Of a stretch of DNA of 64,000 nt, positions 259 through 59,241 are shown piece by piece. The position numbers and the translations under genes are program-made. Source of the stretch: Clostridia bacterium (GTDB lineage Bacteria > Bacillota > Clostridia > Christensenellales > Borkfalkiaceae); NCBI GenBank assembly GCA_017502525.1, contig JAFVUV010000011.1:1-64000 (forward strand). Reading direction: 5' to 3'. The stretch's first letter is position 1. Every line of letters starts with the position of its first letter. The notes under the pieces are model-generated. The model saw only the letters and a list, made by a program, of their open reading frames with translations, was not told where the DNA came from and made no database searches.

Positions 259-300
259 TCTGTAAAACGCTGATTTTAGCGTGAAAATATAAAAAATATA

Positions 301-327
301 GGTCTATAAGCAAAATACTTATAGACC
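301..327 (-). terminator. Terminator that probably belonged to tRNA-fMet
   Basis: There is a perfect 10-bp stem, GGTCTATAAG (301-310) with CTTATAGACC (318-327). Reading on the minus strand it is followed by a T-rich tract (287-300). It sits directly left of the candidate attL, exactly where the 3' flank of tRNA-fMet would lie if the element at 334-9087 were removed. I infer that the integration separated the tRNA from this terminator. Confidence 0.6.
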
Positions 328-333
328 CATACA

Positions 334-451: not shown

Positions 452-1462
452 TCATTTAGTTATATTTACAAGTATAGCGTCTAATTTATTTTGTGTGTTT
501 ATAAATGACTTATAGATTTTATTTATCCCAGCTTCACGAGCCATACTAATTACAAGATTTTCTTCCGCTTTGTCCATACGCAAACCAAGAATAATTCCGC
601 TAGGAATCCACTCTAAAACGGGTGATTTCATAGAACAATTAGTAATTATACGCCATTCTTCATCGTATTTATGACATTCTTTTTTTATCAATGTTATACG
701 TTCACGTTCCCAATTACCATTACACATTCCTTGATACAACTCTTGCGGAATGTCCACCTTGGCAAGTTCGCCAATCTTATGCAACATAACGCGTTTTGCA
801 AATTCTGTCGCATTGTAAGGCATATCCGAATAATAAACAGGGTATAATGGAGTTCCAAAATTTATTATCCCGCAGTTTTTGCATTTTTCTTGTTTTCCAC
901 ATAAAAAGTTCTCATCTTTTTCCATATCGTATATCAATGCAAATCCTTTATGCCTATCAGCATATTTTAACCACAAAGACTCATTAAGCCCATTTTCAGA
1001 AAAACAAATCGACCACGTATCTTTTTTTAGTTCATCACGCAAGGATAGTGCAGAACCGAGAAAATTTTCTATAAGTCCATTTTTTTGTGCTTCAATAATA
1101 TTTTCTACTGTAAAGTTTTTCTTTTGCTCTTCCGTTAAAACGTTCTTTAAAAGAAACTTAGTTTTATCTACAACATATTCCGCATTTTTACGTGTATTGA
1201 AAGATTTTAGGTATTCTTCTTTTATATTTTCAATATCTATATGCAAAAAGGTATCAAACGGGTCATCATAATAATTTGCCGTAGAAAAATAGAGTCTGTT
1301 AGTTCTGAGCGCCTCTAAAGTGTTCATACTCACAGAGCGATATCTATATAAATATTTGGGCGTTATTATTTTCTCAAAAAGTTGTTTTGCTTCATCCTGC
1401 GGATTTTCGCCTTTTAGAGAACAAAGCGTTTGCCAAAACAACTCTCTTTCTTTTAAATCCAT
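452..1462 (-). CDS. DUF2971 family protein
   Basis: The product is 336 residues. The N-terminal part has the layout I associate with DUF2971: a YRYRSV-like segment near residue 38, then LYFSTANYYDDPFD near residues 72-85, and later WSICFSE and LWLKYADRHKGFALIYD. The biochemical function is unknown. From family knowledge, DUF2971 genes often lie in defence islands. It is the third gene of a minus-strand operon, 17 bases after the GYQP-repeat gene, with an AAGGAAGA ribosome site. A terminator palindrome follows at once. Calling it part of an anti-phage module is inference from company, not from motifs. Confidence 0.75.
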   Translation of the reverse strand: MDLKERELFWQTLCSLKGENPQDEAKQLFEKIITPKYLYRYRSVSMNTLEALRTNRLYFSTANYYDDPFDTFLHIDIENIKEEYLKSFNTRKNAEYVVDKTKFLLKNVLTEEQKKNFTVENIIEAQKNGLIENFLGSALSLRDELKKDTWSICFSENGLNESLWLKYADRHKGFALIYDMEKDENFLCGKQEKCKNCGIINFGTPLYPVYYSDMPYNATEFAKRVMLHKIGELAKVDIPQELYQGMCNGNWERERITLIKKECHKYDEEWRIITNCSMKSPVLEWIPSGIILGLRMDKAEENLVISMAREAGINKIYKSFINTQNKLDAILVNITK

Positions 1463-1479
1463 TACTATCTTCCTTGTTG

Positions 1480-1653
1480 TTACTTTTGTGCTTTTGTCAC
1501 ATTACTTCCTGTTTTAGGTGGAGGCGGTGGCGTTGACGAACCCGTCAAAGGTTGATAACCATTATTAGCCCCAGGTTTAGGTTGATAGCCTCTATTATCT
1601 CCATTTTGTCTAGGTTGATATCCTTCATTAAGTGAACCCTTTTGTTTATTCAT
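1480..1653 (-). CDS. Small GYQP-repeat, proline-rich protein
   Basis: A 57-residue open reading frame starts ATG at 1653. It has an AAGGAG site 6 bases upstream and overlaps the end of the DUF6338 gene by 8 bases (ATGAATAA). The protein is low-complexity and probably disordered: GYQP occurs at residues 11-14, 22-25 and 32-35, followed by PPPPPK near 42-47 and a basic tail. There is no signal peptide or membrane segment. I recall similar GYQP-repeat small proteins next to DUF6338 genes, but no function is known to me. The good ribosome site, coupled start and regular repeat make it a real gene. Confidence 0.75.
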   Translation of the reverse strand: MNKQKGSLNEGYQPRQNGDNRGYQPKPGANNGYQPLTGSSTPPPPPKTGSNVTKAQK

Positions 1654-2254
1654 TGTTTTCTCCTTTTTTTATTTCAATATATTTAATTTGATTTTTTGCT
1701 ACATAAAACCCTGCACTTTCTTCATCCAATATCCACGTACCATCATCAGTTACTTTATAACCTTTCTGCACATAAATGTCCCTTTCTTCCTCATCCGAAG
1801 AGGTAAATGAGTCTTTTGCATACCATCCATACAGCTTAGTATCATCTACAAGAGTAATAATTACAAATGCTGATTCCTGTTTCGAAAAATAATAATCCCA
1901 AGCAGTAGGCGTTGAATGAATTGTCTTCGCTCCAATCTTTTCTAATAATCGCTTAGCCAAATTAGATTGTTTTAAAAATGCAATAATTAATCCTAAAATA
2001 GCGGAACCTAAAACGGATATTGCAACTAATAATAACCAAAACCAAAATGTTGAAACCAAATCACTCTCTAAAACTATCTTATATAGCCATGACCATATAG
2101 CGCAATGCATTATGCTAAAAATAATACATTTCAATAAATATGTAAATTCCCTAAATCTTTTTGGCGGATTTGTAGAATCTATAATACTATTAACAATAAA
2201 GCCAGGCAAAACGAATATCGCCGTATAAAAAACAGCGTCTAATGACTCTATCAT
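1646..2254 (-). CDS. DUF6338-like membrane protein
   Basis: The product is 202 residues. The N-terminus (MIESLDAVFYTAIFVLPGF) is hydrophobic, followed by membrane segments at about 38-58 and 70-92. Then comes a soluble C-terminal region of about 110 residues with YYFSKQESAFV, KLYGWYAKDSF and the tail motif FYVAKNQIKYIEI. This order matches what I know of DUF6338, a family of unknown function. GGAGG lies 11 bases before the start and overlaps the end of the decayed gene upstream, so translation may once have been coupled. It is the first gene of the tight DUF6338/GYQP/DUF2971 trio. Confidence 0.7.
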   Translation of the reverse strand: MIESLDAVFYTAIFVLPGFIVNSIIDSTNPPKRFREFTYLLKCIIFSIMHCAIWSWLYKIVLESDLVSTFWFWLLLVAISVLGSAILGLIIAFLKQSNLAKRLLEKIGAKTIHSTPTAWDYYFSKQESAFVIITLVDDTKLYGWYAKDSFTSSDEEERDIYVQKGYKVTDDGTWILDEESAGFYVAKNQIKYIEIKKGENNE

Positions 2255-2260
2255 AATGGA

Positions 2261-2717
2261 TTATACCTCCAAGATGCTTTCGTCGCCACAAATGTTGCGA
2301 ATCTTGATGCGAAGAGGTTTCTTTTCGCACTTAATAGTTCCATCCCAAAACTCTTTTGTTTTTGTGCCGTTCACAATAACATAACCGAGCTTATCAATCT
2401 TGATTTCACTATCAGAATGCCATTCACCCGAACTTGCCGTTGTATCAATAGAAATAAACTCAATAAGTTCAAGTCCGTCTTCACTTAGAAGACACTTCTA
2501 ATTCATCTAAATCCAACGTGTTAAAAACACCATTCTTAAAAAGCTCAAACAACGGTTTATTGTCACAAGCAATTTTAAGAAACAAATACGTTTTTATTGC
2601 ATCAACTTGAGCGTCACGCATTTGGTTAGTTTTTTCTATATATTCAATGAGTTCTTTTACTACACAATCGCCAGCAAACCACTCATCTCTTTTTTTAGTT
2701 ATCATTTTATAAAACAT
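2261..2717 (-). pseudogene. Remnant of helicase/methylase-like defence gene(s), fused by deletion
   Basis: Two fragments lie in different frames. The 78-codon upstream piece (2717-2481) has a start region typical of long helicase-type proteins (ITKKRDEWFAG, RDAQVDAIKTYLFLKIA) and then stops. From about 2497 a second frame (+1) stays open for about 78 codons to TAA at 2261. It contains EDGLELIEFI, GEWHSD, IDKLGY and FWDGTI, which look like the C-terminal end of a large protein. My recollection is that the first resembles a DEAD/DEAH or Res-type helicase and the second a type III methylase-like tail. A large internal deletion would explain both. The identification is tentative; the broken structure is clear. 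Confidence 0.6.
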
Positions 2718-2734: not shown

Positions 2735-3595
2735 TTATTGCAACGTTTTAGTTATTTCTATAAAAAACTCTTTGCTCCATAAGTCTAATTTTGACTTGTC
2801 TTTAACAAATGGTAGCACGTCTTCTTTTGCTTGTGCAAAGTCCATATTAGAAAATCTTTCGTTTAATAACTGTTTTAAGTTCTCTATAGTCAAGTCGTAA
2901 TCTTCAGCAATATAATTTGATTGCACCAACTTAGCCTTTAAGTTGACAAGATTTACCTTAGCACCCATTGCTAAAAAGAATACGTAGTCGTAAAAATCTC
3001 TTCCTTTTACTCTTGATTTCCAATTTCTACATAAGCAAGCGTGAATTTTACCCGCAAAAAGCGACGGCATATCGTAAAGCCTTACTTGATACGGTGACGG
3101 CAATAAACTAAATTTCGTTTCAAAAGTTGCACCCATAGGAGGATTTATATCAACCTCAAATTTAATACTAATTAATTCATCTTTATTGATAATATTCGTG
3201 TCGTTAGACTCTTCGTAGAAAGTTAGAATATGTTCTTTAGTATTTCCTTTCAAAAAAGCCGACTTAACGTTAGAATCAAAGGATTTTGCTTTTTCGCTAA
3301 CGCTAAAATTTAGCCCTAAAGACTTAGTTTCGTTCTCTATATAAGAAAAATATTTAGTCAAGTCAAACTCAGGGTTTTGCGAAACAAGTGAAAAATCTAA
3401 ATCTTCACTAAATCTATCTAACCCATAGAAAATCCTAAGCGCAGTTCCGCCGTAAAAAGCGGCATCTTTAAAAAAACCGCCACGAGAAAGCCCACAAAGA
3501 ACAACTTCTTGCACTATTTCTTTAATAGCGTTTTTCTTATCTTCAATATTTCTTATTTGATATTTTGAAAGCATTTGAGCTAAAACTTGTTGCAT
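2735..3595 (-). CDS. abiEii: AbiEii/AbiGii-family nucleotidyltransferase toxin
   Basis: The product is 286 residues. The nucleotidyltransferase signature is visible: FYGGTALR at about residues 48-55, then SEDLDFSL at about 63-70, with the paired acidic residues that bind metal. A later segment (PSLFAGKIHACLCR, then KGRDFYDYVFF) is typical of the family. In type IV toxin-antitoxin/abortive-infection systems this protein is the toxin. The start codon follows the AbiEi stop by one base (TAATATG), so the pair is translationally coupled. It looks intact. Confidence 0.88.
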   Translation of the reverse strand: MQQVLAQMLSKYQIRNIEDKKNAIKEIVQEVVLCGLSRGGFFKDAAFYGGTALRIFYGLDRFSEDLDFSLVSQNPEFDLTKYFSYIENETKSLGLNFSVSEKAKSFDSNVKSAFLKGNTKEHILTFYEESNDTNIINKDELISIKFEVDINPPMGATFETKFSLLPSPYQVRLYDMPSLFAGKIHACLCRNWKSRVKGRDFYDYVFFLAMGAKVNLVNLKAKLVQSNYIAEDYDLTIENLKQLLNERFSNMDFAQAKEDVLPFVKDKSKLDLWSKEFFIEITKTLQ

Positions 3596-3596
3596 A

Positions 3597-4184
3597 TTAT
3601 TTCTCTTCTCCTATAAGCTTTACTAATAAATTTAAGTTCGTTGAACGATACAACGGTGCCATTTTTAATATATCTTCCTTATTTAACTTGTTAAAAGCCT
3701 CTTCGTTGATTCGCAAATCTTCAAAAAGCAGATTTTTTAATTCTTTAACACTTGTAACAGGCGATATTGTATAAAGCTTATCACAAAGCGCCTTTTCTGG
3801 TGTTGCTACTTGGTAGGAATACTGTCCATTCATAATAGCGATAACACCTAAACTAAAAACTTCTTTTGGAACGTCTCTATAAATAAACGTTCCAAATCTA
3901 TTTTTATACGTTTTTATTTTCCTCTTATTAAACGTAGCACAAGTAATCGTATGATAAACTGCTTCAGGAATAAGCCCACGATTGTGCAAAACAAAATCAA
4001 AAGATATATACGATGGACCGTAAATAAATTGCGCCAAATTGTGTCCGCTTGCATTCGGGTCAGTTTCATATATCCCTTTAACTAAAGGAAACAATTTGCC
4101 ATTTTTAACGTCTCTTAAAATTCTACCCTTGGGGTCAGAAAGAGAACTATAATATTCTTTTAGTTGTTGTGTTGTAATAATCAT
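3597..4184 (-). CDS. abiEi: AbiEi-family antitoxin/autorepressor
   Basis: The product is 195 residues from ATG at 4184, chosen because GGAGG sits 7-11 bases upstream; a longer frame to 4298 would run through the promoter. The N-terminal winged helix (about 1-45) is followed by the family body with FDFVLHNRGLIPEAVY and TPEKALCDKLY. AbiEi proteins neutralise AbiEii and repress their own promoter through inverted repeats. Two such repeat pairs are present just upstream (4186-4232 and 4249-4293). The gene is first in the cargo operon. Confidence 0.85.
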   Translation of the reverse strand: MIITTQQLKEYYSSLSDPKGRILRDVKNGKLFPLVKGIYETDPNASGHNLAQFIYGPSYISFDFVLHNRGLIPEAVYHTITCATFNKRKIKTYKNRFGTFIYRDVPKEVFSLGVIAIMNGQYSYQVATPEKALCDKLYTISPVTSVKELKNLLFEDLRINEEAFNKLNKEDILKMAPLYRSTNLNLLVKLIGEEK

Positions 4185-4185
4185 T

Positions 4186-4293
4186 GATTTCCTCCAGATA
4201 GTTGTATTATACCACACTATTTGGAGGAAATCAACAAGTTTGCAAAATATTTGCTCCAAATAATTGTGTTTTTCGCAACTTTCTGGAGCAAAT
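4186..4293. promoter_or_regulatory. AbiEi operator: two inverted-repeat pairs
   Basis: Pair 1 has 16-base arms with one mismatch (4186-4201 and 4217-4232) and covers the promoter spacer and the leader with its Shine-Dalgarno site. Pair 2 has perfect 10-base arms (ATTTGCTCCA at 4249-4258, TGGAGCAAAT at 4284-4293). All four half-sites share the core GGAG(G/C)AAAT. This layout matches negative autoregulation by AbiEi. Confidence 0.7.
4206..4234 (-). promoter_or_regulatory. abiE promoter
   Basis: On the minus strand TTGATT (4234-4229) and TATAAT (4211-4206) are separated by 17 bases, with TGG before the -10 box (extended -10). It would drive the AbiE genes and probably the whole cargo operon to the terminator at 420. 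Confidence 0.75.
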
Positions 4294-4500
4294 CTCACTT
4301 TCGAAACTTTAAAAATTTTTATTTTTCGAAAGCGACGTAAAGGTTATCACAAGTTTTATATACTTTTCGTGACAAGTTTTTAACTCTATCTTGCACGTTT
4401 TCTTACACGATAACTTACATGGTTGTGTCAATAGGGTTATAAATCAATTTTGAGACGCAATAAAGACAAATTTCTTATTTTTCACATAATATCATACAAT

Positions 4501-4521
4501 ATATGACATAATCTGTCATAT
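4501..4521. promoter_or_regulatory. Inverted repeat, candidate operator
   Basis: Perfect 8-base arms ATATGACA and TGTCATAT enclose 5 bases. They lie just before a -10-like TATACT (4531-4536) upstream of the gene at 4557, so they could be an operator or a -35 overlap. No regulator is assigned. Confidence 0.4.
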
Positions 4522-4556
4522 TTACTGTGTTATACTCAAAAAAAAAGGAGAAAAGT

Positions 4557-5681
4557 ATGAAAGTTAATCGTGCGTATAAGTTAAATAAAGAAAAGCAACC
4601 TGCCGAAGAAAAAGGCAAGTTTCTTTACTTCTTTTATAACAACCACAAGTTGGATTGTATTGCCGTAGACGAAGAACAATGGGAAAAGTTAGTTGAATTA
4701 GATACCGAAATGTATAACGGCAATCGTAGGCATAAAGACCACTCGGTTAAACTAACCGATAACGTTAAGCCTGCCGTTGGTGCGGATAACGGCTTTTTAC
4801 ATAGTAAAAAATTTGACTCTGAAGAAGATTTCTTACGTAAAAAAGATATTGAAAATCTTCTACACAGAGAATTTAGCGAACTTGACCGTGACATTTATGC
4901 CCTTTACGAAGATAATTTTACACAAAAAGAGATTGCCAAACAAGTAGGCTTTTCACAAAGCGAAGTTTCTAAACGATTAACTGAAATGTTCTCCGCCATA
5001 GAAACGGATGACTTAAAAGGTCAAACTCAAGATGACGATGAAATTTACGCTATAAAGCAATGGCGTAAATTCAAAAATAAAGGCGTTACCGATGGTGACG
5101 AAGATATTTTGTGGGACGTGTTCCGTGTAGAAATGCCATTGCAACTACAAGAATATATTTGTTCTTGGTTTTATAGTTATAAAGAATACTGCTACTTTGC
5201 CATTAAATATCTTGTTATGAGGGCTTGGGAAAAGTATAACGAGTTAGAACTTGGAAACCGATTGAACGAACTACCACGCCAAGTGAGAGAGTGGTTTTAC
5301 GAATATTACGAATACGAGCCACCGTGTTTTCAATGGTTGTTTATTGCTTTCTTTGAACGCATTGAAGAAATGAAAAAACAAAATCAACCACGCCCTACTG
5401 ACGTAAACTTTCAAAAACTTTTAGATAAGTATAACGAGATTGTAAAGCGACTTGAGTGCACGGCAGAAGAGTTTTACAAAGAACGTATCGCAAAACCTTA
5501 CGTTGAAAAACGGAATAAACGCTATCAAAAATATCTTGACGAAAACTATGTTTTAGTTGTTGATGAGAACGATACACGCCCAATAAAAGAGCAACTTACA
5601 GCGTTTATGGAACATTGTAAAAAACTCGATAAAAAGTATAAAAATAAAGTTGTTACAAAAAAATTAAAAATTACGGAATAA
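4557..5681 (+). CDS. Mobile-element protein with sigma-70 region-4-like helix-turn-helix
   Basis: The product is 374 residues from ATG at 4557, preceded by AAGGAG; an upstream ATG at 4527 lacks a ribosome site. At about residues 105-144 it has a region-4-like segment, SELDRDIYALYEDNFTQKEI followed by GFSQSEVSKRL, the pattern of a sigma-like helix-turn-helix. The rest is charged and rich in aromatic residues and matches no domain I can name. It is followed by two terminators and precedes the mobilisation region. It may control or start replication or transfer of the element, but that is a guess from position. Confidence 0.6.
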   Translation: MKVNRAYKLNKEKQPAEEKGKFLYFFYNNHKLDCIAVDEEQWEKLVELDTEMYNGNRRHKDHSVKLTDNVKPAVGADNGFLHSKKFDSEEDFLRKKDIENLLHREFSELDRDIYALYEDNFTQKEIAKQVGFSQSEVSKRLTEMFSAIETDDLKGQTQDDDEIYAIKQWRKFKNKGVTDGDEDILWDVFRVEMPLQLQEYICSWFYSYKEYCYFAIKYLVMRAWEKYNELELGNRLNELPRQVREWFYEYYEYEPPCFQWLFIAFFERIEEMKKQNQPRPTDVNFQKLLDKYNEIVKRLECTAEEFYKERIAKPYVEKRNKRYQKYLDENYVLVVDENDTRPIKEQLTAFMEHCKKLDKKYKNKVVTKKLKITE

Positions 5682-7380: not shown

Positions 7381-7561
7381 CAAAGTGGAAATAAACCTTT
7401 CCACAAACGAAACGGAAACCTATCCGTTTGAAGCAGACCAAAACACTATTTTAAGAGCCGCAAGCATACTTGCAAACAAAATTTTAGACTTCGCAAACCA
7501 AGGCGGAGATGTTAAAAACATTACGCCGAAAACACTTTTCGGCAACAAGGAGGAATTATGA
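7352..7561 (+). CDS. Small element protein coupled to the recombinase
   Basis: The product is 69 residues, acidic to neutral (YLDEINKVEINL, PFEADQNTILRAASILANKI, ending GNKEEL). The frame begins at TTG 7352 only two bases after AAGGAG, so the true start is uncertain. Its stop overlaps the recombinase start (ATGA at 7558-7561), showing translational coupling. I do not recognise a domain. Position suggests a role in recombination control, for example a directionality factor, but this is speculative. Confidence 0.55.
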   Translation: MKRHYLDEINKVEINLSTNETETYPFEADQNTILRAASILANKILDFANQGGDVKNITPKTLFGNKEEL

Positions 7562-9080
7562 AAAAGAAAGCAGTAATTTACGCAAGATTTAGTTCACACG
7601 CACAAACCGAACAATCTATTGAAGGTCAACTACGTGAGTGCTATGATTTTGCAAAGAGAAACGATATTACCATTATCGCCGAATACATAGACCGTGCGCT
7701 TACGGGCACGTCGGATAAACGCCCGCAATTTCTTAAAATGATTGACGATAGTAAAAAGAAGCATTTTGAATACGTTTTAGTTTATCAATTAGACCGTTTT
7801 GCCCGTAATAGGTACGATAGTGCAAACTATAAAGCAAAGTTAAAGAAAAACGGCGTTAGGGTTTTATCGGCAAAAGAAAACATTTCAGACGACGCAAGCG
7901 GAATACTTATCGAAGGCGTTTTAGAGAGTATGGCGGAGTATTACTCCGCCGAACTTTCACAAAAGACAAAGCGTGGCGTTAAAGAAAGTTTACTTAAAGG
8001 TCATTTTATTGGTGGATACACCCTACTCGGTTATAATATCGTAAACAAAAAGTGGGTAGTAAACCCCGCAGAAGCAGAAATCGTTAGAGACGTTTTCAAT
8101 CGTTACCGTAACGGCGAAAAAGGAAAATCAATAGTCGATAGATTAAACAGTCAAGGCATTAAGCCTAAAAACGGAAAAGCATTTACAATGACGGGGATTT
8201 GCCGTATGATACGTAACGAAAAGTATATAGGAATTGTGACTGTTGACGGGACAACCTATCCCGACGTCGTTCCACCTATCGTTGACAAAAGACTATTTAA
8301 GGAGTGCAATTTGATTATGGATGGACATAAACATAGACAGCGTGAAGTTTACCACGAAAACCCTTACATATTAAGTGGCAAAATGTACTGTGGGTATTGT
8401 GGCAACACAATTACAGCAGAGACGGGAACGAGCCACAACGGAAGAGTTTACCACTACTATAAATGTTTTGGAAGAAAGTCCGATAAAAATAGTTGCAGTA
8501 AGAAAAACGTTAAGCAAGACTATATTGAAAGCGTAGTTTTTGGTGCAACCGTTGAATACGTTTTAACGCCAAAAGTTATTGATAAAATTGCTAAAACGGT
8601 AGTTGATAATTTTAACGCTGAAATTGAAAAGCCAACGGCACTACTTGCTTTTGAAAAAGACCTAAAAACGGTTAAAAAATCTATTGATAAAATTTTAACT
8701 GCGATAGAAGAAGGAATTTACACTAAGTCCACAAAAGAAAAACTTCTATCACTTGAAGCCACGCAAGAAGATTTAGAAGCGAAAATTGCCGTTGAAAAGG
8801 CTAAACAAATTAAGCCGTTAGAACTTGTTGACGTTAGGACTTTTCTTAACTACTATGCAAGGAAACAGTATGAAAATGGGCAAGAAAAAAACGAGTTCTT
8901 TAACTCGTTTATAAACCGTGTATTTTTATTTGACGATAAGGTTATTATTCTCTATAACACCAACAAGAGAGAAACAAAGCGATTAAACAAAAAAGAGTGC
9001 TTAGAGATAATAAACGGCAAAAACCTAGAAGAAATAAAAGAAAACTCGTTTGAACGAGAAAAGTTCAAACGAGTATCTAG

Positions 9081-9102
<22 letters not shown>
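7558..9102 (+). CDS. Large serine recombinase (integrase of element 1)
   Basis: The product is 514 residues. The resolvase-type catalytic domain begins at once: YARFSS with nucleophile Ser12, then QSIEGQ and DRFARN. The recombinase domain follows (GYNIVNKKWVVNPAEAEIV, about 155-250), then a zinc ribbon (CGYCG near 283 with a later Cys pair) and a coiled-coil. The last codons (AGT GGT TGC GGG GAG GGG ATT TGA) are read from the attachment site and the tRNA-fMet gene. In an excised circle the frame would instead continue across attL for 21 codons to TAA at about 406, giving roughly 531 residues. It appears active. Confidence 0.92.
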
Positions 9103-9158
<56 letters not shown>

Positions 9159-54805: not shown

Positions 54806-56407
54806 TTAAAATTGAATTTGTAAGCGGTTAAAGTCAAATTCCATATTTCTTAGAGTAAAGGGGTATCTAATGTTATCTATACTTTCATAAACAGTGCAAG
54901 TAAGCGGTGTTTTTAGTCCTGCTAATTCGTGAAGATTGATTATTGTTTCAACGGTATCAACATTTATTTTTATTTCCTTGATAAGCGTTTGTAGTAATTC
55001 TTGCTTCAAGTAGAAGTCTATTCCGTCTAACACTTTCTTAAAATCAAGAACTTTCTTTCTCAAAGTTTCCTTGTTGATTCGGGGCAAGGAACTTCTTTCC
55101 GCTTTTATTTCGTCTATTATTAAAGCAATTCTATTTGCTTCGTTTCTTTCTTCCGTAATGTTGTTAGATATGACGGTGGCAAGTGTCTTTCCCTTATTTT
55201 TGAGTATTATATCGTTAAGACTTGAAATCAACGCTTCTTTTTCTATTAACTGCTTTTTTAAGTCGGTTAATTTTTCCGTTTGACTGTCGTGTAGTTTAGT
55301 AATACCTTGTCTTAATAACAGTATAATATTGTCGGTATTTCGTAAGGATAAAAATGCTTGGGTTAATAGATTAACTATGTATCTATCTAAGTAAACAACG
55401 TTTATTGATTTTCTTCCTTCGTGTTTTGGCTTTCCATTGCATACATAGGAAAAATAGGCTTTTCCACGAGCAACACTTTTTCCGCCTGCTACTGCCGAGC
55501 CACACATACCGCACGTTATAAGTCCCGTTAAAAGGTACTTTCCTTTTTTTCGTCCACGTCCGTTTTTCTGCATTCGGCTATCTAACTTTACTTGTACTCT
55601 TTCAAACACGTCGGTTTCTACTATTTGGGGCATACCGCCAACTATTCTTACAACTTCCGATTCGGGTTTTCTTTGTCGTCTCCATTTTTCACGGCAAGGG
55701 GAACGCTTATAAAGGTTGAACACGTATTCTCCGATATATTGTCGGTTTCGCAATAAATCGGTTATGTTGTATGAAAGCGGTCTGCCGTCTCTCCGTCTAT
55801 AACCTTCGGCATTAAGAATATCAACAGTTTCTTTGTATGTATGACCTTCATCAACCAAGTGGAACATTTTATATATTGCTTCGGCTTCTTTTGGTACTAT
55901 TCGATACCTTTTTTGAGCGACTTCGTACCCGTATAAAGCAACGCCAGAGTGTGCTTTACAATTTTTCGCATTCTCTATTTGTCCGTTAAAGGCTTCTCTT
56001 GAAAGCCGTTTACTGTATAGTGCCGCCATACCCATACTCATTAGTTTGAAGAAATCGCCTTCGGGTGTATCATCAAAATTTTCAACTGTACTTATGACCT
56101 TAATTCCGAGTTTATCTAAATGCTTTTGAGCAGATAATGCAAGTTCAACGTTTCGAGCAAATCTATCCCATCTATGTACTATTACAAGGTCAAAGTCGCC
56201 CGAATAAGCGTCCTGCAACATTTGTTGAAATTCTTCTCTATTGCCGTCCGTACCTGTCCTTGCTTCGTCCTTATACTCTTTGATAACAGTTATATTGTTT
56301 GCCTTGCAGAACTTTCTACACTCGGCTATTTGAACTGCTATGCTTGATTCTTGTTGTTTGTCGGAACTATATCGGCTATATATAACGCCGTTTAGTCTTA
56401 CACTCAT
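54806..56407 (-). CDS. Large serine recombinase (second of element 2)
   Basis: The product is 533 residues. The catalytic domain has YSRYSSDKQQ with nucleophile Ser14, then QIAECRKFC and DRFARN. It is followed by the recombinase domain (GYEVAQKRYRIVPKEAEAIY, near 165-185), a zinc ribbon (CGMCGSAVAGG near 300, with a later Cys) and a coiled-coil. It appears complete and active. The start follows the upstream gene by 10 bases with AAGGTG overlapping its stop. Confidence 0.92.
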   Translation of the reverse strand: MSVRLNGVIYSRYSSDKQQESSIAVQIAECRKFCKANNITVIKEYKDEARTGTDGNREEFQQMLQDAYSGDFDLVIVHRWDRFARNVELALSAQKHLDKLGIKVISTVENFDDTPEGDFFKLMSMGMAALYSKRLSREAFNGQIENAKNCKAHSGVALYGYEVAQKRYRIVPKEAEAIYKMFHLVDEGHTYKETVDILNAEGYRRRDGRPLSYNITDLLRNRQYIGEYVFNLYKRSPCREKWRRQRKPESEVVRIVGGMPQIVETDVFERVQVKLDSRMQKNGRGRKKGKYLLTGLITCGMCGSAVAGGKSVARGKAYFSYVCNGKPKHEGRKSINVVYLDRYIVNLLTQAFLSLRNTDNIILLLRQGITKLHDSQTEKLTDLKKQLIEKEALISSLNDIILKNKGKTLATVISNNITEERNEANRIALIIDEIKAERSSLPRINKETLRKKVLDFKKVLDGIDFYLKQELLQTLIKEIKINVDTVETIINLHELAGLKTPLTCTVYESIDNIRYPFTLRNMEFDFNRLQIQF

Positions 56408-56417
56408 AATTTCACCT

Positions 56418-57470
56418 TTAATAGAGCAACCAATAACCCCATTTTTGGGGCGGTATCGGTATGGTTTCTATTCCTTTTTCTTTTAGTAGTTTATATGTTT
56501 CCCACGCTTTATTGACGTTTCGTGAGTATCGTATAACGTCGGTTAATATAACGTGAGTAAATGCCTTTTCATTTGCTTTTCGTATTAACGCTTTTAAGCC
56601 GTTTCCGTATTCGTGTATTCCTGAAACATTTTCATCTTCAAACACGGCAACTATATTAAGGCTTAGTTTAATACATATATCGGTACAACGCTTTATTTGA
56701 AACTTTGTTGCATTACCACCGCCTTGTTGGTTAGTTCGTGCATAAATACAAACACGTGTTCCTTTTTTAAGGTCATCTATACACGGAAAACGTACTAACG
56801 GCGGTATAGTTAAAGGCAAGTTCCAATAGTTAGTAAACGGTGCTATTGTATTTGTGGGCGTTTCTCGTTCGCCCGTTTTATGATTATATTTAAGTTCATA
56901 CATTTTGTTTTGGCTCCAATCTTTATATAACCACTCAAAGTATCTGCCGATAACTTTTATTAGTCTGTTCCACTTGGGTGGTAGTAGGTTTGTGCCACGT
57001 TTTTCAATAGTTTTTCCGTTATTAAAGAGCATTGTTATTTGCCACCACGTATAAGGGGAAAGGTTTGTAGGTTTAGAGTAGAAGTCGTTCCATAGTTCTA
57101 TGTGCTGTATAAAAAGCCGTGCTTTAAGTTGGCTTGCTTCTTCTTTTCCAATTGTATATGGTGGGGATATGGTAGTTTGCTTGTATTTAGGGGAAGTAGT
57201 AATTATACCGCCGTTATCGGTTAAATCAATTTTAAGGCTCTTAAAGTCTCCGCACCCGTTAACGTATGATAAGCAAAATTGTTTTAGGTTGCTATAAGCA
57301 TTTATATCTAACGCTTTTAACATTTCGGGGCACTTGATACATTTACCGCAAACACGATTTAAGCGGGTATCGTAAGGCTCTTTGTTTATTTCATCATTAA
57401 GGCTTTCGATAGTGAACGTATAACCTTTTAAATTCGTTTTTGTACAAAACGGGCAAGTTGTTTTTATCAT
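56418..57470 (-). CDS. Recombinase-like protein lacking catalytic serine, with N-terminal zinc motif
   Basis: The product is 350 residues. The N-terminus has two cysteine pairs (CPFC at 6-9 and CGKCIKC at 41-47), probably a zinc site. A middle region (110-235) is rich in Trp and Tyr and unknown. The C-terminal 115 residues resemble a serine-recombinase catalytic domain (VCIYARTNQQ, FEDENVSGIHEYGNGLKALI, IRYSRNVNKAWE), but the nucleophile position is Asn247 and the protein ends after it with no recombinase or zinc-ribbon domain. I infer a catalytically dead partner or regulator. It lies between two active recombinases in one operon. Confidence 0.75.
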   Translation of the reverse strand: MIKTTCPFCTKTNLKGYTFTIESLNDEINKEPYDTRLNRVCGKCIKCPEMLKALDINAYSNLKQFCLSYVNGCGDFKSLKIDLTDNGGIITTSPKYKQTTISPPYTIGKEEASQLKARLFIQHIELWNDFYSKPTNLSPYTWWQITMLFNNGKTIEKRGTNLLPPKWNRLIKVIGRYFEWLYKDWSQNKMYELKYNHKTGERETPTNTIAPFTNYWNLPLTIPPLVRFPCIDDLKKGTRVCIYARTNQQGGGNATKFQIKRCTDICIKLSLNIVAVFEDENVSGIHEYGNGLKALIRKANEKAFTHVILTDVIRYSRNVNKAWETYKLLKEKGIETIPIPPQKWGYWLLY

Positions 57471-57527
57471 AGTTTTCTCCTTGTAGAATAGATAAAAGCC
57501 GAACGGCTATTCCGTTCGGCTCATCTT

Positions 57528-59087
57528 TTAATTATGTAGTTGTATTTCTATTTTGTCATCTTTGACTATTATTGTTTTTATGAACGCCCTTATTAACTTT
57601 CTTGTGATAGTTATGTCGTTAAACAGTTGGGTGTCGCTTATTATGGGGTTTCCGTTGCCGAGTCCGTTTAGGTAGTTAATGTAGTTATTAAGGCTTTTTT
57701 GTTTACGATTAAGTACTTTTATGATTGAAACGTTGTCGGTAATGGTTTTTTGTAGTGCTTGTGCTAAATCTTCGGTTGCAAGGCAGTATTTTTTAGATAG
57801 TCGCTTGTTTTCTCTTTCCAAATCTTGAACACGTCGGTTAAGTTGATTGAGTTGGTCTTTGTGCTTTGATAGAAGATTTGTTAAAGAGTTTCCTGATAGT
57901 TTGCCTGCTTTTAAGAAAGCGTTAACTTCTCGGTGTATTACTTTCTTAACGGTGTTTTCAAGGTGTTCCGCATTGATTTTCTTGACCTTACAACCGTTTT
58001 TTCTTCTGCTATCCGAACACACGTAATATCTGTATTCTTTTTTTCCACGCTTGCTTTTAGTCGTTTCGCCGAATACTTTCTTTCCGCATTCGCACTCAAT
58101 TATTCCTGATAATATGTATTCGGGGTGAGCGTTCTGCTTGTTTCTTCCGATTTCCCTTTCATCTAAAAGGTCTTGTACTTCAAGGAATAACTTTTTGCTT
58201 ACTATTGCTCTTAAAACGGTGTTATCGTTTCTAACTTCTGCTTGTTCCCCGAGTAATACTCTCCGTTTCTTTCGGTTAACGGGGTTTCCGTTCTTATCCT
58301 TTCGGCAGTAAACGTATATTCCCGCATATTTCCAGTTTCGGAGCATATCGCTTATAGTTGACTGTTTGAACGGCTCGCCCGAACGGGTTAAGTATCCGTT
58401 GGCAGTTAGTGTTGTAATTATTTCTTGGTAAGGGGTTTTCTTTACCGCAAGGTCGAATAACAGTTTAATGGCGGGTGCTTCGTTAGGCTCTATATCAAAT
58501 TGCTTTCCGATGCATTTTAGACCGTAAGGGGCTCTTCCACCTGCTGATTTTCCGCTTTGAGCACGTAAGTGTAGGGTTTGAGCCGTTTTCGTTGCTGCTG
58601 TTCTTGCTTCAAATTGAGCCATTGCAAAGCATAAGTTTGAGTAGAATTCGCCCATATTTGAATTTTCGTAGTACACGTTGCCGAAGATTAAAAACACTTT
58701 GTACTGTTCAAGTTCTTTTTTAATGTTGTCAAAGTCGCCAATGTTTCGGGTTAATCTTTCGTGGTGGTATAGAACTATAACGTCTATATTACCGTTTTTG
58801 ACTTCTTTCATCATTTTGGTTAAGCCATCTCTATTATCTGTAAACATACCGCTTTTTGCTTCGTCTTTATAGATATGACAGTCTTGTAAGTTAAGTAGGT
58901 TGGGGTAGTTAGATATAAGGCTTTTACAGTCGGTAATTTGAGTTTCTATTGACGTTGCCGTTTTATCTTCAGAAGATTTTCTTGCATATATTGCAGTTTC
59001 TAACTTTTTCTTATTTGAGTTGTTAAACTGCTTTGCAACAAGGACGGTTTGCATTAACGTTAATTCTTTGGGTTCAAGTTGTCGCAT
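57528..59087 (-). CDS. Large serine recombinase (first of element 2, Ccr-like)
   Basis: The product is 519 residues from ATG at 59087, which has AGGAGG upstream and overlaps the small gene before it by 14 bases. The catalytic motif YARKSSED (Ser38) is followed by HHERLTRN, a recombinase domain (RAPYGLKCIGKQFDIEPNEA), a zinc ribbon (CECGKKVFG with CSDSRRKNGC) and a long coiled coil (about 415-470). It is a cassette-type recombinase by family and context. Confidence 0.9.
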   Translation of the reverse strand: MRQLEPKELTLMQTVLVAKQFNNSNKKKLETAIYARKSSEDKTATSIETQITDCKSLISNYPNLLNLQDCHIYKDEAKSGMFTDNRDGLTKMMKEVKNGNIDVIVLYHHERLTRNIGDFDNIKKELEQYKVFLIFGNVYYENSNMGEFYSNLCFAMAQFEARTAATKTAQTLHLRAQSGKSAGGRAPYGLKCIGKQFDIEPNEAPAIKLLFDLAVKKTPYQEIITTLTANGYLTRSGEPFKQSTISDMLRNWKYAGIYVYCRKDKNGNPVNRKKRRVLLGEQAEVRNDNTVLRAIVSKKLFLEVQDLLDEREIGRNKQNAHPEYILSGIIECECGKKVFGETTKSKRGKKEYRYYVCSDSRRKNGCKVKKINAEHLENTVKKVIHREVNAFLKAGKLSGNSLTNLLSKHKDQLNQLNRRVQDLERENKRLSKKYCLATEDLAQALQKTITDNVSIIKVLNRKQKSLNNYINYLNGLGNGNPIISDTQLFNDITITRKLIRAFIKTIIVKDDKIEIQLHN

Positions 59088-59241
59088 TATCGCCGTCCTC
59101 CTGATTTGCAAGGATTTCTATCAATAATTCATTGACAACGTTAATTCTTTCGTTTGAGCACAATGTTCTTTTGGTGTTTGTTAATGGAATATTACCGCTT
59201 TTTTCAGTTATTACTTTTCGTGGGAAGATATATTTACGCAT
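59074..59241 (-). CDS. Small protein between Cch-like gene and recombinase
   Basis: The product is 55 residues from ATG at 59241, with GGGAG 9 bases upstream. It overlaps the Cch-like gene by 8 bases (ATGCGTAA) and the recombinase by 14 bases. It is basic at the N-terminus (MRKYIFPRKVITEK) with a helical C-terminus (INVVNELLIEILANQED). Staphylococcal cassettes also have a small gene between cch and ccr, but I cannot claim homology. Confidence 0.6.
   Translation of the reverse strand: MRKYIFPRKVITEKSGNIPLTNTKRTLCSNERINVVNELLIEILANQEDGDNATT

Follow-up and report, generated by a model that had tools for sequence, protein, structure and literature searches.

DUF6338 (PF19865), a family described as of unknown function, almost certainly forms one functional unit of two genes together with a short, proline-rich protein built around GYQP motifs, whose frame lies immediately 3' of it. 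This pair was found in a window of 64,000 nucleotides, the whole stretch of Clostridia bacterium DNA analysed here, and was then followed through a survey of other genomes. We favour, at slightly less than even confidence, the reading that this single two-gene unit is cargo of mobile elements, often lodged near anti-phage systems, in which a membrane protein with an Sm-like domain would be regulated by a disordered partner. The features of the window locus are as follows.

1646-2254, minus strand: DUF6338 gene, 202 residues (PF19865, E=2.6e-30)
2265-2270, minus strand: Shine-Dalgarno-like GGAGGT of the DUF6338 gene (from the sequence)
1480-1653, minus strand: gene of the GYQP-repeat small protein, 57 residues (from the sequence)
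1660-1665, minus strand: Shine-Dalgarno-like AAGGAG of the GYQP gene, 6 nt 5' of its ATG (from the sequence)
1612-1623, minus strand: GYQP unit 1, residues 11-14 of the small protein (from the sequence)
1579-1590, minus strand: GYQP unit 2, residues 22-25 (from the sequence)
1549-1560, minus strand: GYQP unit 3, residues 32-35 (from the sequence)
1516-1530, minus strand: PPPPP tract in the C-terminal tail of the GYQP protein (from the sequence, the alignment of relatives and divergent clades)
452-1462, minus strand: DUF2971 gene, 336 residues (PF11185, 22.7 bits against a cut-off of 22)
1470-1475, minus strand: Shine-Dalgarno-like AAGGAA of the DUF2971 gene (from the sequence)
296-332, minus strand: terminator-like hairpin 3' of DUF2971, 17 pairs of which 4 are G-C (consensus scan)

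The original prediction had described three packed minus-strand genes, and their arrangement was confirmed: the DUF6338 and GYQP genes overlap by 8 nt (1646-1653), a gap of 17 nt (1463-1479) precedes DUF2971, and the 57-residue protein indeed carries three GYQP units and a PPPPPK tract (residues 42-47). Both family assignments also stood, since the DUF6338 protein matches PF19865 over residues 1-196 with 106 bits against a curated cut-off of 26.5, as a full-length member, and the DUF2971 protein, just above the PF11185 cut-off, matches the PADLOC candidate family PDC-S31 (E=4.6e-27). Among PADLOC profiles, the DUF6338 protein reached only 0.019 to PDC-M48A and the GYQP protein had no match, nor did the latter match any Pfam or NCBIfam profile. 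The minus-strand run probably ends at the hairpin at 296-332, the consensus scan having returned 9 such sites in 5 kb against 2.3 expected. Close to the contig edge, positions 214-332 contain two terminator-like hairpins in tandem whose stems resemble each other (CTATAAG...CTTATAG type), and an Rfam scan around the locus detected no RNA except tRNA.

The pairing was surveyed in 84 DUF6338 loci from plasmids, phages, IMG/VR, GTDB contigs and whole genomes; the very diverse DUF6338 alignment was too variable for a pattern search, so that the survey started from gamma-proteobacterial seeds, towards which its loci are biased. Among plasmids and phages, the first relatives of DUF6338 to be found were already followed by short ORFs that encode GYQP units and a PPKKP tail. 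Overall, a short ORF with a GYxP motif and a proline tail immediately follows DUF6338 in 74 of the 84 loci and in 43 of 51 non-redundant clusters (one, L027, being probably spurious), and the window pair, with its overlapping frames, presents the same downstream, same-strand arrangement. When a strict test was applied (30-115 residues, a GYxP-like motif, PP near the C-terminus and at least 10% proline), it was passed by 103 of 337 small ORFs located downstream of DUF6338, compared to 26 of 6,658 elsewhere in the same loci. Ten loci failed it, among which two have DUF6338 and the GYQP tail joined in one fusion protein (L080 and L019), one harbors a degenerate version (L020) and two reach a contig edge (L067 and L070). 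Outside Actinomycetota and three very divergent hits (L021-L023) that have no clear downstream small ORF, such an ORF is present in nearly all surveyed loci.

These small proteins have a median length of 53 residues and mostly contain one to three units, GYQP being the commonest variant (126 of 209 units), and their frames are mostly spaced from DUF6338 by -23 to +27 nt. Tandem copies, two to four in number, occur in 19 of 77 loci under a looser filter, and one Pseudomonadaceae locus (L130) presents both GYQP and GWQP small ORFs behind DUF6338. The pairing extends over at least five phyla; the hypothesis that GYQP proteins are exclusive to Pseudomonadota was rejected, as loci were found in the phylum of the window itself, in Chlorobiota, in Synergistota and in Sumerlaeota. 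Codon comparisons between related pairs among the relatives yielded pN/pS values mostly of 0.03-0.33, with pS up to 0.9, and only two pairs deviated, each with three or four differences in total. At the level of codons, the small ORF is thus under strong purifying selection as a protein in the relatives, from which all selection figures come, no close homologue of the window GYQP gene having been found. A chance origin of the frame was rejected on the basis of this recurrence and selection, and the conservation of a GYQP frame in related operons, on which the original prediction depended, is clear.

The tails of the small partners are of PPPKKP, PPKER, PPGDE or Gly-rich type, and tail type tracks the DUF6338 tree, with 11 changes against a shuffled mean of 34.9 and none of 200 shuffles as low. 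A test on the polyproline tail only retrieved 81 of 106 DUF6338 genes versus 17 of 620 other genes of the same loci, these loci being related and not independent. In divergent DUF6338 clades, other Pro-rich small ORFs occupy the equivalent place, e.g., 'KGSNPPPP...NVNPPPTS.RP' or 'MTSKAPQPMP...APPPLKR', and the Pro-Pro tail is the feature that most of the partners have in common; this polyproline tail, rather than GYQP, is their ancestral-looking feature. One divergent sister clade (L134-L148, L111-L115) accounts for 15 of the 20 hits of a Pseudomonadaceae sample and has ORFs of the latter type directly 3'.

None of 40 GYQP proteins matched Pfam or PHROGs, PHROGs has no family for DUF6338, and viral contigs searched with the window DUF6338 alone gave no match. 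The sole match of a viral contig search with GYQP alone (L013) was discarded as a false, low-complexity match inside a phage gene, and the small protein is best located via DUF6338, not by its own sequence. The suspicion that gene callers miss such proteins was right for some annotations, e.g., those of CP119217 and NZ_MH220285, where the first of three copies is unannotated, but RefSeq records others as 'hypothetical protein'.

The third gene behaves differently. Among the surveyed loci, DUF2971 adjoins the DUF6338-GYQP pair in the window only; in L060 it lies about 4.4 kb from DUF6338, across integrase and helicase genes, and of the two closest relatives of the window DUF2971, one neighbours an AbiU-like gene and the other belongs to a type I restriction operon, both without DUF6338. 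The recurrent link of the three families that had been predicted was thus not found, and DUF2971 was rejected as part of the unit. A three-gene defence module, in which DUF6338 senses, the GYQP protein links and DUF2971 acts as soluble effector, can point to the tight packing in the window and to the PADLOC candidate family matched by DUF2971, but given this distribution it is extremely improbable. DUF2971 looks instead like a candidate defence gene in its own right within the same island. One relative, 43% identical to that of the window, is encoded at 7294-8292 of L122 (G159:C14), flanked by genes for the R and an S-like subunit of type I restriction, a position suggesting that DUF2971 is itself a recurrent guest in defence operons.

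Structure prediction divides DUF6338 into two parts.

1964-2251, minus strand: three long helices, residues 2-97 of DUF6338 (2-28, 36-63 and 69-97; AF2 and hydrophobic sequence)
1664-1903, minus strand: Sm/LSm-like region, residues 118-197, a short helix and a beta barrel (AF2 and Foldseek)

The AF2 model of the window DUF6338, built with 41 homologues, reached a pLDDT of 86 and a pTM of 0.65; its helices would form the membrane part, and residues 129-197 are modelled as a small beta domain. Foldseek against the PDB matched this model almost only to Sm/LSm proteins, with a probability of 1.00, E of 0.012-0.1 and TM-scores by target mostly of 0.5-0.7, the best matches being archaeal and eukaryotic Sm/LSm proteins; Gemin6/7 are also among the hits. 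An independent homologue model, that of the L080 fusion, gave the same fold (E 0.003-0.03). Despite the probability of 1.00, E-values were modest in both predicted models (0.003-0.1, none at or below 0.001), and DUF6338 displayed no detectable sequence similarity to solved chains; on these models, the C-terminal domain is predicted to adopt an Sm/LSm-like fold. As GYQP proteins were misplaced when aligned with the fusion, the latter was folded with DUF6338 rows only, and its GYQP tail showed a pLDDT of 54-68, above typical disorder and with no confident docking. The predicted design of a membrane sensor or effector with a disordered linker fits the anatomy of DUF6338 and its partner.

The surroundings of the pair in the window include the following genes.

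2735-3595, minus strand: AbiEii toxin-like gene, upstream neighbour (PADLOC, E=8.1e-108)
3597-4184, minus strand: AbiEi antitoxin-like gene, upstream neighbour (PADLOC, E=2.9e-58)
9081-9158, strand opposite to the serine recombinase ORF: tRNA-Met

Both profiles of AbiE, a type IV toxin-antitoxin system, were thus matched, and the pair lies between these two genes and the separate DUF2971 gene. The original prediction had placed all of them in one operon-like run; the AbiE genes are real, but 226 nt (2255-2480) separate DUF6338 from the AbiE-side genes, so that a common transcript is no more than a possibility. This stretch contains a short GTG-started frame (2261-2374, '..NGTKTKEFWDGTIKCEKKPLRIKIRNICGDESILEV'), AbiEii is followed by an ORF of 78 residues (2481-2717) without convincing family match, and the region 2255-2717 possibly includes a degraded or unannotated gene. 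The predicted mobile-element setting was borne out: genes for a MobV relaxase and a serine recombinase, on the strand opposite to the minus-strand run, mark a mobile element that ends at tRNA-Met. The recombinase ORF (7558-9102) terminates within the 3' end of the tRNA-Met gene, suggesting that the element integrated there, and its left end is missing because base 1 of the window is the start of the assembly contig (C10). Farther along, three successive recombinase/resolvase-like ORFs (533, 350, and 527 residues), with a 600-residue ORF further right, make the region 54806-59111 look like a second mobile element.

In other genomes, the pair is carried in prophages, plasmids and defence islands and sits beside unrelated systems, so that the defence-like setting proposed for the window recurs in many of them. 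In L014, a CBASS cyclase and a 2TM/SLATT effector stand in one run with DUF6338, and another cyclase-like gene is found near it in L076. Caspase genes adjoin DUF6338 together with TIR genes in L025, L028, and L091, and additional caspase neighbours occur in L127 and L085. A UG19 reverse transcriptase lies 55 nt upstream in L124, and single loci harbor SIR2-HerA (L081), IetS of IetAS (L071), E2-E1-JAB (L088), DarTG (L065) or DUF4062 (L083). In an E. coli prophage (L094), CAP12-TIR and SIR2 genes are nearby, the pair (WP_021544535/WP_021544534) standing alone in an orientation opposite to its neighbours. PADLOC matches near DUF6338 also include Dsr1, type I restriction and reverse transcriptases; at E≤1e-10, 124 models were counted within about 5.5 kb of 13 genomic loci versus 10 in equal-sized regions of the same contigs, a rough enrichment only, since models rather than genes are counted and many models match one gene. 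Some loci, e.g., L092, have no obvious defence neighbour.

In several prophages (L053-L055, L059, L060, L094), the pair occupies the same variable site between helicase and DNA polymerase genes, with CAP12-TIR-like genes close by and SIR2 in some, and this site is a probable defence hot spot. The Klebsiella phage pJN2-26 (L018, MZ779062), whose circular genome includes a replication gene of RepB type, also carries the pair, at positions 3962-4712. The distribution of DUF6338 is sporadic, with 5 of 398 species in the phylum of the window and 20 of 298 in the Pseudomonadaceae sample.

In the literature searched, DUF6338 was named by one paper only, although the family is widespread, and nothing relevant was found on DUF2971, GYQP or Sm-like defence proteins. 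In P. stutzeri, the operon Pstu14405_RS12030 encodes three small Pro-rich proteins together with a DUF6338 gene (PMC10433244). Mass spectrometry identified these small proteins, abundant without infection, from 44-114 spectra; the DUF6338 protein yielded no peptide, membrane fractions being outside that analysis (PMC10433244). Likened by description, they resemble the GYQP partners, being short, Pro-rich and directly linked to DUF6338. The authors of that study regarded them as lacking conservation outside P. stutzeri and as possible de novo genes (PMC10433244). Contrary to that view, the small-partner type recurs in at least five phyla, and the suggested de novo origin is probably wrong; it is contradicted as a general statement, the sequences being compared by description.

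As for the way in which the pair might work, DUF6338 would anchor its Sm/LSm-like barrel at the membrane, and the small partner would be an intrinsically disordered, multivalent peptide. It would bind the Sm-like domain both with its GYxP repeats and with its polyproline tail, of PPPKKP, PPKER, or PPGDE type. In so doing, the partner would probably bridge or gate several DUF6338 subunits and hold the complex silent or assembled until infection disturbs it, and DUF6338 might then act on the membrane, so as to arrest growth, exclude superinfection or cause abortive infection. This specific mechanism, with partner binding to the Sm-like domain, gating of DUF6338 oligomers and alteration by infection, is somewhat unlikely to hold in all its parts. 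That the unit is mainly defensive is rather probable, as suggested by its genomic context.

Several other readings share part of this evidence. The pair could serve toxin-antitoxin-like maintenance, with DUF6338 as a membrane toxin neutralised by the disordered GYQP protein and defence as a by-product of life on mobile elements. A small disordered partner encoded by an overlapping or abutting frame would be expected there, as would plasmid and prophage carriage and the sporadic distribution, but many loci have two to four partner copies, and the natural fusions of L080 and L019 would be unusual in neutralising pairs; we consider this explanation unlikely. In another reading, DUF6338 would be a common protein of the envelope or of stress responses that has a small subunit and no link to defence, its neighbours reflecting hot spots of mobile DNA. 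Defence genes were not seen around the chromosomal sister clade, whose loci are short, and the abundance of the P. stutzeri small proteins without phage agrees with such a role (PMC10433244). Against it speak the very uneven presence between related species, the frequent carriage in prophages and plasmids, and the sharing of one run with a CBASS cyclase and 2TM effector or with a UG19 reverse transcriptase, which make it quite unlikely.

Most Sm/LSm proteins bind RNA, and Hfq is a protein of this type. The best fold matches of DUF6338, being archaeal and eukaryotic Sm/LSm proteins, could accordingly point to a membrane-anchored module that binds RNA in the manner of Hfq/SmAP rings, with the GYQP protein as chaperone or assembly partner. 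However, the Sm-like fold also serves protein-protein contacts, as in Gemin6/7, and the RNA-binding explanation is distinctly unlikely. Compared to the favoured two-gene unit with a regulated membrane protein, the archaeal SmAP and eukaryotic Sm proteins would have the fold of the C-terminal domain in common, by structure comparison of models, but differ in that DUF6338 is predicted to be membrane-anchored, is not detectably similar in sequence to the solved chains and has a disordered peptide as partner.

No known counterpart of the DUF6338-GYQP architecture was found. The three loci with TIR and caspase genes resemble in this respect the TIR-caspase (type IV) Thoeris, reportedly described by Rousset and colleagues in 2025 (cited in PMC12799240), but these genes look like a separate system and most DUF6338-GYQP loci lack them. 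Nuclease-protease pairs have been acquired recurrently by unrelated antiviral systems (PMC12799240). DUF6338-GYQP is similarly a two-gene unit beside several unrelated defence systems; unlike these pairs, it encodes no nuclease or protease and also stands alone in prophages. New for DUF6338 are the small partner that regularly accompanies it and the predicted Sm-like domain. The function of the pair could still place it among toxin-antitoxin or superinfection-exclusion modules.

The analysis turns two families of unknown role into one testable complex, in which DUF6338 is regularly accompanied by a micro-protein, has a domain predicted to be Sm-like and tends to reside in defence islands. More broadly, conserved disordered proteins of 40-60 residues escape family libraries, as did all 40 GYQP proteins searched, and the recurrence of the small-partner type challenges the published idea of newly born genes in P. 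stutzeri (PMC10433244). Tentatively, DUF6338-GYQP may represent a portable two-gene immune module, acquired repeatedly beside unrelated defence systems and standing alone in prophages, in which a membrane-anchored Sm-like protein is controlled by a disordered, multivalent micro-protein. If this is true, the module would have been overlooked because its second protein counts 40-60 residues and has been dismissed as hypothetical or de novo.
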